This document shows positions 13,882 through 18,229 of a stretch of DNA of 21,444 bases, piece by piece; positions within the stretch are counted from its first letter, which is position 1; every line of letters starts with the position of its first letter. Where the stretch lies: positions 1-21,444 of IMG/VR virus record IMGVR_UViG_3300008120_000381; one strand, given 5' to 3'. The stretch comes from a virus. The translations under genes were made by a program, and so were the position numbers. The notes below the pieces were generated by a model. That model saw only the letters and a program-made list of their open reading frames with translations, searched no databases and was not told the DNA's origin.

Positions 13882-14508
13882 TCACTCCAACCCAGCAAGG
13901 GTGTCGATGATGGCGGCGCTCAACGTCGATGCGCCGGAATACAGGATCCCGCCCATGATCAGGCCCATGCAGGCCTCGGCCCGCTGCGTCCAGTGCCCCC
14001 CAAACGGTTTGTTGATCGCGTATGCCGCGACGGCAAGCACGCCAACCGCCGCAAAATCGGCAGCGGGGGTAAACCACAGCGCTCCAATTGCCGACGTCAG
14101 CACGTTCAAACCGTACTCGACAGGCCCAATACCAAAAAGATCGAACGCAGGCGGGTTGAAGCGGTCAACATCGAACCGCGTATAGATCGGCAACGTGGCG
14201 ATAAGGGCGACAACCCAACCCCAGGCCCCAAGCAGCAGGTGATCGCGGCCGGGTCTCTCCAAGCCCATACTCGCCCCAAAGTAGCCCAGCACCATTGCCA
14301 CATACAGGGACCCCCAAAGCACAATGAGCGCCGGATCGAACATCGCAGCCAACGGCGCTGCCATAAGGAAGGCGCACGCGATCCGCGTGATCGTCGTCCC
14401 CGGCTCGACAAGGAACAGCTTGCGGACGATTGCCCCAAAGCCACCGCCGCGAAGCGTCCAGACGTATCCGCACCAGATGACGTAAAGAGTTGCGAGAGCG
14501 TAGGTCAC
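13882..14508 (-). CDS. Polytopic membrane protein of unknown function (208 aa)
   Basis: It starts with GTG at 14508, coupled by a 4-base overlap to the 59-aa gene, and ends 3 bases before the portal start. There are about five or six hydrophobic segments: roughly residues 2-19, 41-57, 59-78, 91-109, 134-148, 152-165 and 179-202, separated by charged loops. Near the first segment is WTLRGGGFGAIVRK, a motif like the W-x-LRGG of uncharacterised phage membrane proteins. There is no signal peptide or enzyme motif. Holin function is possible because lysis genes often sit near fibre genes, but the protein is longer and has more segments than most holins and no endolysin is next to it. Superinfection exclusion or modification of the host envelope are other options. 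Confidence 0.75.
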   Translation of the reverse strand: MTYALATLYVIWCGYVWTLRGGGFGAIVRKLFLVEPGTTITRIACAFLMAAPLAAMFDPALIVLWGSLYVAMVLGYFGASMGLERPGRDHLLLGAWGWVVALIATLPIYTRFDVDRFNPPAFDLFGIGPVEYGLNVLTSAIGALWFTPAADFAAVGVLAVAAYAINKPFGGHWTQRAEACMGLIMGGILYSGASTLSAAIIDTLAGLE

Positions 14509-14684
14509 GGCAACGCCTCGATCTTGGCTTGGAGTGCGGCCAATTCCGCAAGCAGCTCATCACGGGTAGGCGCTGCGGGCGCAGGAGGGGGAACGTAGGC
14601 GGCGATTGCGGCGAGTTCTTCCGCCGTGTACTCGCGCACGGTTTCTTCGCCTGTCTTGACGTTGATTTCTCGAACTTGGGTCAT
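14505..14684 (-). CDS. Small protein, possible fibre assembly chaperone (59 aa)
   Basis: The ATG at 14684 follows GAGGAACGC, a good ribosome-binding site that begins inside the previous TGA. The TGA at 14507-14505 overlaps the GTG of the next gene (GTGA). The protein starts MTQVREINVKTGEETVREYT, then has an acidic helix AEELAAIAA, a proline linker PPPAPAAP and a second helix with LLAELAALQAKIEALP, a probable short coiled coil. Small proteins of this make-up (NVxTGE... TAEELAA...) are common beside phage fibre genes and are often annotated as assembly or tail chaperone-like. The role here is inferred from that resemblance and position. Confidence 0.7.
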   Translation of the reverse strand: MTQVREINVKTGEETVREYTAEELAAIAAYVPPPAPAAPTRDELLAELAALQAKIEALP

Positions 14685-14691
14685 GCGTTCC

Positions 14692-15303
14692 TCAGTAGTA
14701 GATGATGTTGTAGGAGCCGCTGTCGAACACGTCGGTGCCGCTGGGCGTCGTTAAACGAACGCGGGACAGCGCACCGGCAAGCGCCTTACGCCCAAAGCAG
14801 TCGTGGCGGTTTGCGGAGCCGTCGATGAGACGCCCGCCCCCAACCCAAGTGTTCGTCGCAGCATCCACGAGGCAGAAGGTCAGCAAGCCCGAATAGAACA
14901 GCGACGCACTGTTGTCATAGAAACGGAAGCCGCTGGTTTGGATGCCCCCGACAACCGAGGCACCAGACAGCCGCTCCTCAAACACCGAGTAGCCGGTCGT
15001 CTCGATCCCGCCTGTCGGGCCGAACTGCACCATCAAAGGCGACGAGCCGTTAGTGGAGACTTGGTTGAGGATGACATGCAGGACCGAAATACCAGTGGGA
15101 ACGGTAGTGAAGTCCACAGACGACCCGCTGGTCGTGGCCGCAAGCGTGCCGCGTGTCACACCGCCGCCCGCATTCAGCGTGTTCCCCGTAAAGCTCAGGC
15201 CGGTCCCAAGCGTGATCTCGCCGGTCGCACCACTCGGGCCACGCCCAAGCAGCCGCGAGGCGGCGAGGGAAACCATCGCGGGGGTTACTAAGGTTTGGCT
15301 CAT
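14692..15303 (-). CDS. Tail fibre/virion surface protein (203 aa)
   Basis: The ATG at 15303 overlaps the cupin stop (ATGA) and is preceded by AAGGGG. The N-terminus holds the common fibre linker LLGRGPSGATGEITLGTGL (18-36). The rest is a beta-rich domain: SGSSVDFTTVPTGISVLHVI, then SLFYSGLLTFCLVD, and a C-terminal SRVRLTTPSGTDVFDSGSYN followed by IIYY. These patterns are typical of distal domains of phage fibres or surface proteins that expose one variable beta-sandwich. It lacks a long shaft, so it may attach to another fibre or directly to the particle. It may bind a host receptor, or work with the neighbouring cupin and glycine-rich protein. Confidence 0.75.
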   Translation of the reverse strand: MSQTLVTPAMVSLAASRLLGRGPSGATGEITLGTGLSFTGNTLNAGGGVTRGTLAATTSGSSVDFTTVPTGISVLHVILNQVSTNGSSPLMVQFGPTGGIETTGYSVFEERLSGASVVGGIQTSGFRFYDNSASLFYSGLLTFCLVDAATNTWVGGGRLIDGSANRHDCFGRKALAGALSRVRLTTPSGTDVFDSGSYNIIYY

Positions 15304-15563
15304 TGTTTGGCCCCTTCAAAGACGTTGAGGATCGACGCCGGTTCGAGGGCTTCAATCGAGTGGAACTTAGGTGCGCGGAAAAGCGCGGGTTGATCCAACG
15401 CGCCAAACTCGCGCTGCGTGTCGTCAGTCGTCACGCGCACGCGGCCCGTCAGCACGATCATCAAGTGATCGACGTTGTGGTTGTGGCGAGGCAAGCCTTC
15501 GCCGGTCGCGAAATCGTATCGCACAAAGTCACTCCCGAGCGCGTGGAAGGCGTGCGTGTTCAC
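15300..15563 (-). CDS. Small cupin-fold protein (87 aa)
   Basis: The start is the GTG at 15563, coupled to the previous stop as GTGA; GGAGG lies about ten bases before it. The sequence fits cupin motif 1 closely: G21, five residues, H27-x-H29, three residues, then H33 where the usual glutamate sits, six residues and G40. H68, in RAPKFHSIEAL, is in the position of the motif 2 histidine. This predicts a single-domain cupin with a possible four-histidine metal site (H27, H29, H33, H68). Cupins include metal-dependent dioxygenases, sugar isomerases and non-catalytic structural proteins, and the substrate cannot be told from sequence. Its position inside the fibre cassette, ATGA-coupled to the 203-aa fibre gene, suggests work on the virion or on the host surface rather than general metabolism, by inference. 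Confidence 0.8.
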   Translation of the reverse strand: MNTHAFHALGSDFVRYDFATGEGLPRHNHNVDHLMIVLTGRVRVTTDDTQREFGALDQPALFRAPKFHSIEALEPASILNVFEGAKQ

Positions 15564-15772
15564 AGTTCAGTTACTCCTCCAACTTCGCCGCTCGATGCAG
15601 GTGCGGGCGGGGGCGGAAGCAACTCGAACGCGCCATTGACATAGCGATGCGTCTGCGGCGTTACGTCGTCGGCGCACTCAACCCAATGCAGAGGCGGTGC
15701 GACGGGAAACGGCGCATCTTCGACTTGGCACAGCCGGTCGTTTTCGCCGGGGGAAATCAGCGCGTACTTCAT
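15560..15772 (-). CDS. Small protein of the fibre cassette (70 aa)
   Basis: The ATG at 15772 overlaps the preceding TGA (ATGA), and its own TGA overlaps the GTG of the cupin gene (GTGA). The sequence begins MKYALISPGENDRLCQVED, has APPLHWVECADDVTPQTHRY in the middle and a proline run near residue 53. It resembles small phage proteins of the form MKYALINP...WVECPDDV...YxxGxF that sit beside fibre genes; no function is established to my knowledge. It could be a fibre-bound subunit or an assembly helper. The coupled overlaps on both sides make coding very likely. Confidence 0.65.
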   Translation of the reverse strand: MKYALISPGENDRLCQVEDAPFPVAPPLHWVECADDVTPQTHRYVNGAFELLPPPPAPASSGEVGGVTEL

Positions 15773-16290
15773 GCGGCACCTTTGAGGTATTCAGTGACGA
15801 CAACTGCCCCAGCGGTGCCTGGGCCACCACCAGAGCCAGCGCCGGTAGTACCGCCGCCGCCGTTAAGGCGTCCCGGCCCTGCGAAACCTCGATAAGCTGG
15901 AAGTCCGCAACCGTATGGAACCTGACCTCCAAACGCCGCTTGACCACGAAGATTTATATCCCCGCCCGAGCCAGAGCCAGCGCCTGTGGAAGATCCCCCT
16001 GTTGCAGATGCAAACGAGCCAAACGAAGATGTACCTCCGGTCGTACCATTAGCGCCCACGACGACAGTAACCCCACTTGGAAGGCTCTGCGTCGGAATGA
16101 GCCGCCGAGAGTACCCGCCAGCACCACCACCATAATCGGCTGCTCCGTCAGCGTGCCCGCCCTCAACCTCAACATCGACAGCGATCAGGTTGGCGGGCTT
16201 GCGGTAGAAGAACGTTCCTGCCGTGTTGTAGACACGCCGCACCATTCGGAACGGCACCGCATTGTCAGCGTCAAAGATGCCAAGGTTCAT
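15769..16290 (-). CDS. Glycine-rich fibre-tip or receptor-binding candidate (173 aa)
   Basis: The ATG at 16290 is 3 bases after the previous stop, with GGGGA upstream; the gene ends ATGA, overlapping the next start. After a short N-terminal region, YNTAGTFFYRKPANLIAVDV (21-40) matches the opening beta strands of phage glycine-rich domains. There follow Gly/Ser-rich stretches from about 44 to 160 (YGGGAGGYSR, GTTGGTSSFGSF, GAGSGSGGD, LNGGGGTTGAGSGGG) and a closing strand, GAVVVTEYL. Such proteins can be distal fibre tips or adhesins with short glycine helices carrying variable loops, as in the gp38-type adhesins of T-even phages. I infer the same job here, as partner of the 512-aa or 203-aa fibre. 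It shows no similarity to those adhesins beyond glycine richness. Confidence 0.7.
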   Translation of the reverse strand: MNLGIFDADNAVPFRMVRRVYNTAGTFFYRKPANLIAVDVEVEGGHADGAADYGGGAGGYSRRLIPTQSLPSGVTVVVGANGTTGGTSSFGSFASATGGSSTGAGSGSGGDINLRGQAAFGGQVPYGCGLPAYRGFAGPGRLNGGGGTTGAGSGGGPGTAGAVVVTEYLKGAA

Positions 16291-16690: not shown

Positions 16691-18229
16691 TTAGATCACT
16701 CCTGCGTCTAGAAGAAGGAAAGCAGGCGCACCCGAGGGGGCGTCCTGATACGAAGGGTCGGCGCCAGCGCCGTTGGAAGTTAGAATTTGGCCTGCCGTCG
16801 TGCCGCGAAACAGCTTCGTGGCGTCAACAGCGTTGGCAGCAATCTTCCCCGTCGTTACGGCGGCATCAATGATCTTTGCCGTAGACACAGAACCGTCAGC
16901 AGGCGTGCCGATCGGCGACGACGAGATCGTAAAAGCATAGACCTTCGACAGATTGGCCGGGGCGGTCACAAACGTCAGCGTGGTCCCCGATACCGAAAAG
17001 TCGGTTCCGGGCGCCTGCCGCACGCCGTCGATATAAGTAAAGCACGATTGGTTGGATGCGGGCGTGGCGGTGAGCGTGAATGTCGTATCAATGCCATCGC
17101 CCGTGAACTGGTCGAACGTGATGTTCGCAGCCGACCCGTCTAGGCCGTTGTCGCCGGTGCGCGCAAAGGTCGCAAGCGGCACGTCGGCTGCCGACCAGGT
17201 TCCGTTCGATGACGCATGGGCGACCGTGAGCTGCAGCCACGATCCGTTATCGACCAGCGCCGTGACGGTGAAGATGGCAAAGTCGGAATTTGACCCGTCC
17301 TTGCGGAACGAGAGCGTCCCCTTGTTCGTTGCGTTGCTGTCGTCCCACGTCGCAACAAAGTCGGAAATGTCTGGGTTCCCGGCGTCTGCCGACTGGGACG
17401 AGACCGCGATCTCGGTGACGGATGCAACGGCGGCATTGTTGAACCGGATCCCGCCGGCTCCGGGATCTGCCATCGAGGTGCTGACGTCGAACGTCCACGG
17501 GATGCCCTTGTCCGAACCCTGGTCGCCAGATGCGGCAAACCCGATATAGGCAATGTCGGCGGCCGTCAGAGTGCCGTTCGAGGACGAGTGTACGGTCGTA
17601 AGCTCGAGCCATGTCCCGTTGTCGACGACGTTCGTGACATAGAAGATCGCGAAGGTGGCGGGTGCCGTCTTTTTCCGAAGCGTCAGGGTGCCCTTGTAGA
17701 CGCTGGTGCTATCGGCCCAGTTGGCTACATAGGCAGAAACATCGGGGTTCCCGGTGTCGCCCGAGAGGGCAGAGACCGCGATCGCGGTGACGCTGGCAAC
17801 CGTCGCATTGTTGAGCCGGAAGGCGCCGGTGCCCGGATCCGCCATTGCCGTTGTCGCATCAAAGGCCCAGGGGATGCCGCCGAGCGACGCAAAGGCCTGG
17901 GCCTCGGCGGCACTAACTGCAGCGCTATCTGCGGCCACCACGGCGCCATCGCCCACCGCGACGGCCTGGGCAGCCGAGTTGGCGGCATCTTGCTTGGAGA
18001 TCAGGGCGTCGTTTGCTGAGCCCGCAGCGGCCGTTTGAGACGCGGCAGCGGCATCTGCAGCGGCCTGGGCGCTGGCGGTGGCTTCGTTCACCACGTCGTT
18101 GACCGTGGCCTGGCGCGGCGTCGCGTTCTGCACCACCATGACCAGCTCGTCGCCGGTCAGCGGCAATTTAGCCGCGGGCAGCTGCGAGATCTGCTTGGAC
18201 TGGCCTACCACGGGACCCGTTGCTGCCAC
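16691..18229 (-). CDS. Tail fibre protein with duplicated domain (512 aa)
   Basis: The start is the GTG at 18229 (MAATGPVVGQ), with GGGAGG about 6 bases upstream. Domains in order: an N-terminal fibre motif (about 12-48, QISQLPAAKLPLTGDELV), an Ala-rich likely coiled coil (49-112), two tandem copies of a domain of about 124 residues (118-240 and 242-364), a domain around 369-438 containing FTYIDGVRQAPGTDFSVSG, and a C-terminal fibre segment with ADGSVSTAKI, AANAVDATKL and GQILTSNGAGADPSYQD. These are typical modules of trimeric phage fibres. Each repeat ends in a short collagen-like stretch (GDQGSDKG, GDNGLDG). It probably forms the shaft of a side fibre and cooperates with the glycine-rich protein two genes downstream. 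It lacks an evident receptor-binding tip of its own. Confidence 0.85.
   Translation of the reverse strand: MAATGPVVGQSKQISQLPAAKLPLTGDELVMVVQNATPRQATVNDVVNEATASAQAAADAAAASQTAAAGSANDALISKQDAANSAAQAVAVGDGAVVAADSAAVSAAEAQAFASLGGIPWAFDATTAMADPGTGAFRLNNATVASVTAIAVSALSGDTGNPDVSAYVANWADSTSVYKGTLTLRKKTAPATFAIFYVTNVVDNGTWLELTTVHSSSNGTLTAADIAYIGFAASGDQGSDKGIPWTFDVSTSMADPGAGGIRFNNAAVASVTEIAVSSQSADAGNPDISDFVATWDDSNATNKGTLSFRKDGSNSDFAIFTVTALVDNGSWLQLTVAHASSNGTWSAADVPLATFARTGDNGLDGSAANITFDQFTGDGIDTTFTLTATPASNQSCFTYIDGVRQAPGTDFSVSGTTLTFVTAPANLSKVYAFTISSSPIGTPADGSVSTAKIIDAAVTTGKIAANAVDATKLFRGTTAGQILTSNGAGADPSYQDAPSGAPAFLLLDAGVI
17138..17878 (-). repeat. Tandem duplication of a 124-residue fibre domain
   Basis: Within the 512-aa fibre, residues 118-240 and 242-364 align without gaps: both open GIPWxFD, share MADPG, VASVT, GNPD, KGTL, FAIF and VDNG, and close with xSSNGT then AAD. 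By hand count a little over half of the positions are identical. The plus-strand DNA shows matching blocks near 17460-17500 and 17830-17875. This is an old in-frame duplication of about 372 bp. Confidence 0.85.

Follow-up and report, generated by a model that had tools for sequence, protein, structure and literature searches.

A small metal-site cupin gene lying among phage fibre genes raises the question of what such a protein does there and which of its neighbors it works with. The locus is found in the window, a 21,444-nucleotide stretch of viral DNA (IMG/VR record IMGVR_UViG_3300008120_000381, positions 1 to 21,444) that also encodes a P22-like portal and a phage capsid protein. A preliminary description based on the sequence alone identified an 87-residue four-histidine cupin with 4-nucleotide overlaps on both sides between fibre genes, and proposed that it is either an unusual structural subunit or an enzyme acting on sugars or on the fibre itself, with no described role in virions. 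The observation was confirmed in this analysis. The interpretation was only partly supported: coupling of a predicted four-His cupin to fibre-type genes holds across hundreds of phage contigs, but neither a virion subunit nor an enzyme acting on sugars or on the fibre was established.

The cupin gene and its neighborhood

The ORF at 15300-15563 (minus strand) encodes 87 amino acids from a GTG start and contains the motif G21-x5-H27-x-H29-x3-H33-x6-G40, followed by H68. It overlaps the stop codon of a 70-aa ORF through GTGA at 15560-15563 and the start codon of a 203-aa ORF through ATGA at 15300-15303. Pfam Cupin_2 matches at E 2.5e-5, a sub-threshold score (24.3 against a curated cutoff of 27.2 bits) for a divergent member. 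AlphaFold2 with 60 homologs predicts a nine-strand cupin barrel (pLDDT 95, pTM 0.83), and the best Foldseek matches in the PDB are cupins (TM 0.73-0.86), among them TM1459, KdgF and the cellulose oxidative enzyme CelOCE. In the alignment of 60 sequences, extending down to about 30% identity, the invariant columns are G21, G23, H27, H29, H33, G40, H68 and E71, a pattern far beyond chance. The spacing is that of cupin motif 1 (G-x5-HxH-x3,4-E-x6-G), but the Glu is replaced by a His that is invariant in 60 of 60 sequences.

The placement between fibre genes is supported by the 173-aa Gly-rich product encoded upstream of the 70-aa protein (15769-16290, minus strand; phrog_863 tail fiber assembly, E 7e-10) and by the 512-aa product (16691-18229, minus strand; phrog_18673 tail fiber protein, E 4e-9). 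It is only likely for the 203-aa product directly after the cupin (14692-15303, minus strand), a probable fibre-tip domain that matches phrog_29482, a family of unknown function, at E 6.8e-7; similar sequences follow type I cupins (the type found in the window, see below) in L046 and L062 (L numbers designate the viral stretches compared). The 70-aa product (15560-15772, minus strand; MKxALISP family) has no significant match to a described family. Its predicted structure comprises a five-strand domain (residues 1-51), without significant similarity to any PDB structure, and a low-confidence tail from about residue 52 that includes the Pro-rich linker PPPPAPASSGEV (15581-15616, minus strand).

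Distribution among viral contigs

The cupin is not peculiar to this phage but is common in phages of uncultured bacteria. Close cupins occur in L002 and L003 (same phage type as the window), in L004 (74% identity, a different phage) and in L086 (69%). Among isolated phages, the search for close relatives returned a single match, MW202879.1, in one uncultured assembly. The MW202879.1 cupin (32% identity) led to 270 viral-contig relatives, and an alignment query found at least 479 stretches in viral contigs. Thus, the two conditions named beforehand as refuting the preliminary description, occurrence next to fibre genes only in this phage, or a predicted fold other than a cupin with non-conserved histidines, do not apply. 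Recent capture of a bacterial gene was also considered, but two scans of 85k bacterial and archaeal genomes, sensitive only to close relatives, found none. Genes located before the small protein match mainly tail-fibre PHROGs, while those after the cupin are fibre, baseplate, endolysin or unknown genes. The 92-aa type I cupin gene of MW202879.1 (22927-23202; L005:5962-6237) has no CDS of its own in the GenBank annotation and lies between two annotated hypothetical genes.

A C-terminal tag on the upstream protein

The preliminary description did not recognize the most informative feature of these loci, which lies outside the cupin gene. The small protein encoded immediately upstream belongs to very different families, but its last residues are nearly always QPxxxG(A/S/T)QTL-COOH, usually ending in the ATGA or GTGA overlap with the cupin; the same 4-nucleotide geometry is found in L004 and most type I loci. 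Clustering of the upstream proteins without their last 18 residues left at least a dozen clusters that have no detectable similarity but share the tag, so that a conserved peptide occupies the extreme C-terminus of otherwise unrelated proteins. The 70-aa protein of the window ends in GGVTEL (15563-15580, minus strand), the window-clade form of the GxQTL tag, and the upstream protein of L004, which belongs to another cluster, ends in the same six residues. In 97 distinct tag sequences, the consensus is Q83 P86 x x x G97 [AST] Q92 T81 L90, with Gly at -5 invariant. All four Gly codons, both Gln codons, four Thr codons and four Leu codons are in use, and the stop codon is TGA or TAA. This codon freedom, together with persistence of the tag when a third gene lies between the tagged protein and the cupin, rules out a Shine-Dalgarno sequence or an overlap constraint and indicates that selection acts on the peptide. 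No same-frame fusion of small protein and cupin was found.

The tag is not universal, as some type I cupins directly follow other proteins. In L086, the cupin is preceded by an untagged small protein of a type like the 59-aa one encoded at 14505-14684 of the window, making it the one close relative that departs from the rule.

Tag and cupin types

Other cupins in these contigs go with other tags or none. Type II cupins (VHIGCVANLYSRMM...HTHQFDH) follow the same small-protein families as type I, which then end in IPxx(I/V)L. Type IV cupins (HxHx5H) go with PxV(I/V)(A), and type III cupins (HTHxFSH) go with no tag.

The correspondence was examined in two small-protein families collected by their folded domain only, so that membership did not depend on the cupin, and pooled with members already identified. 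With cupin type read within 800 nt downstream, 72 of 74 type I loci carried GxQTL, 28 of 31 type II loci IPxxVL and 9 of 9 type IV loci PxVIA, whereas 0 of 5 type III loci and 5 of 48 loci without a cupin were tagged; there was no cross-match to a wrong tag type. In total, 157 of 167 loci agree, against a mean of 61.8 and a maximum of 84 in 20,000 shuffles within family, although the tag patterns were written after seeing the data, many contigs are fragments and the overall set was gathered partly through cupins. Pairs of small domains with 75-97% identity but different cupins differ in tag accordingly in most cases; domains 79-90% identical carry different tags when the cupin differs, for example L159 (type I, GAQTL) and L169 (type II, EIPRSIL), which are 90% identical. 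In another pair, with small domains 97% identical, L398 has a type IV cupin and the tag SDAPTVI, while L385 has no cupin and ends in TDAPTS, a possible decayed tag. Cupin type changes at least 30 and 21 times on the two domain trees, but these trees are short and poorly supported, with only one to three independent pairs on supported branches.

A mechanical scan of all ORFs ending in G-x-Q-[TED]-[LF] identified 107, of which 99 have a type I cupin within 800 nt downstream. Five of the other eight lie on contigs with a type I cupin elsewhere, and three contigs (of L250, L348 and L383), which may be fragments, carry the tag with no cupin found.

A possible partnership in phage fibres

These observations suggest that the cupin is the dedicated partner of the small fibre-associated protein made just before it. 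In this view, which is favored only slightly over the alternatives taken together, the cupin recognizes the C-terminal peptide presented on a flexible Pro-rich tail, probably docking it at the mouth of its barrel near the metal and perhaps also acting on it, and unrelated small domains can be swapped while the same cupin is kept; the low-confidence tail in the model of the 70-aa protein is as expected for a tethered peptide. The complex would most likely serve fibre assembly or the fibre tip. The analysis establishes the fold as a prediction, the invariant His set, the wide occurrence in fibre loci, the tag, its match to cupin type and selection on the tag as protein; physical binding, a bound metal, presence in the virion and any catalysis are inferences only. 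In a broader form, about as likely as not, phage fibre loci would use a peptide code in which several types of small metal-site cupin each recognize their own tag, a plug-and-socket system with a metal site in or near the socket that allows exchanged small domains to recruit, or be processed by, the right cupin. Phages evolve host range by swapping fibre parts, and how swapped parts stay compatible is an open practical question. A short peptide that predicts the neighboring cupin provides a clue to this compatibility, a marker for fibre modules in uncultured phages, a direct and cheap test (a peptide plus an 87-aa protein) and a biological setting for four-His cupins, whose natural role is unknown in the best-studied example, TM1459.

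It is possible, though unlikely on present evidence, that the tag is instead a substrate and that the cupin is an oxygenase-like enzyme modifying the C-terminal peptide or the Pro-rich linker. The invariance of the four His and E71 and the enzymatic nature of the nearest solved relatives are compatible with this view. In addition, a 2OG-Fe(II) oxygenase (PF13640/PF13759), another metal enzyme fold, is the next gene after the small protein in 8 of 42 cupin-free loci, and such oxygenases also sit beside type I and type II cupins. Examples in the same slot after the small protein or right beside the cupin are at L012:4315-4857 and L340:1737-2861, both PF13640, and at L261:1764-2306, recognized only by eye and without a Pfam match. 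Some type III cupins carry a C-terminal half resembling a SET methyltransferase, a protein-modifying domain (L132:7423-8355 and L246:3896-4771; PF00856 at 6e-10 in L132, by eye only in Rhodoferax phage P26218 gp30). However, GAQTL is not a known substrate, the 2OG genes are often in loci without any tag, and type III-like relatives such as Vibrio phage VPMS1 gp18 have lost the full His set but keep the fold, which favors a structural role.

Two other readings appear less likely still. Tag and cupin might simply form a recombination cassette, with crossovers in the linker and an overlap that serves translational coupling, since most pairs overlap by 4 nt, tag and cupin nearly always travel together and small domains change often on the trees. 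Yet the tag is conserved as amino acids with free synonymous change, is kept across strongly diverged type I cupins, and is kept with an intervening gene or with the cupin elsewhere on the contig; in L385 versus L398, absence of the cupin goes with apparent tag decay. Alternatively, the cupin may be an independent enzyme on host surface sugars or sugar precursors, merely co-expressed with fibre genes. Fibres act at host contact, and by profile the nearest solved sequences are carbohydrate-active cupins, so that action on sugars is not excluded, but this similarity is at superfamily level (16% identity) and this reading leaves the type-specific tag unexplained.

Comparison with described proteins

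A PDB sequence search with the single protein returned nothing significant, but the family profile matched the cellulose oxidative enzyme CelOCE (PDB 9bwf; 8e-6), the pectin-degradation cupin KdgF (5fpz, 7zyc; 7e-5) and the Thermotoga maritima four-His manganese cupin TM1459 (1vj2, 8awp; 1e-3 to 2e-3). TM1459 has the same ligand set with nearly the same spacing (H52, H54, H58, H92; PMC5031596) and the same fold (Foldseek 4.5e-5, TM 0.84), but is only about 13-15% identical and is not known to be tied to fibre genes or a tag. CelOCE, a small copper jelly-roll that oxidizes cellulose (PMC13353379), and KdgF are likewise small single-domain cupins, but they are stand-alone carbohydrate enzymes with about 16% identity that are not part of phage fibre loci, and CelOCE aligns with Gln rather than His at the third ligand position.

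The statement that no role had been described requires a small correction, because short-tail-fibre proteins with an RmlC-like cupin domain have been annotated before, without experiments (Ralstonia phage phiAP1 ORF43, PMC8703784; VPMS1 gp18). These belong with phrog_24280 and phrog_12032 ('tail fiber adhesin', 'short tail fiber protein'), which type III cupins match clearly (E 5e-20), whereas the window cupin matches only at E 1.4e-3 over 28 residues. VPMS1 and its relatives have an extra N-terminal region, lack the complete His set and have no tag partner. Literature searches on cupins in virions, fibres or receptor-binding proteins found no experimental role, and no paper on a cupin-tag pairing was found in the open-access literature, the only part that could be searched; the new and testable element is the type-specific C-terminal tag. 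The small domain of the MQATLTSL family is homologous to the PB1-like 'tail fiber protein' (PB1 gp47), which is likewise placed after the large fibre gene, between the fibre and endolysin genes, but has 142 aa, is followed by endolysin and has no cupin.

Variants of the type I arrangement include a tandem arrangement in one phage, L105 and L108 (L108:4656-6798), where two pairs of tagged small protein and type I cupin flank another ORF and the small proteins belong to two unrelated families. In L138 (1715-2146), L313 and L314, the type I cupin has a C-terminal extension of about 55 residues of unknown nature.
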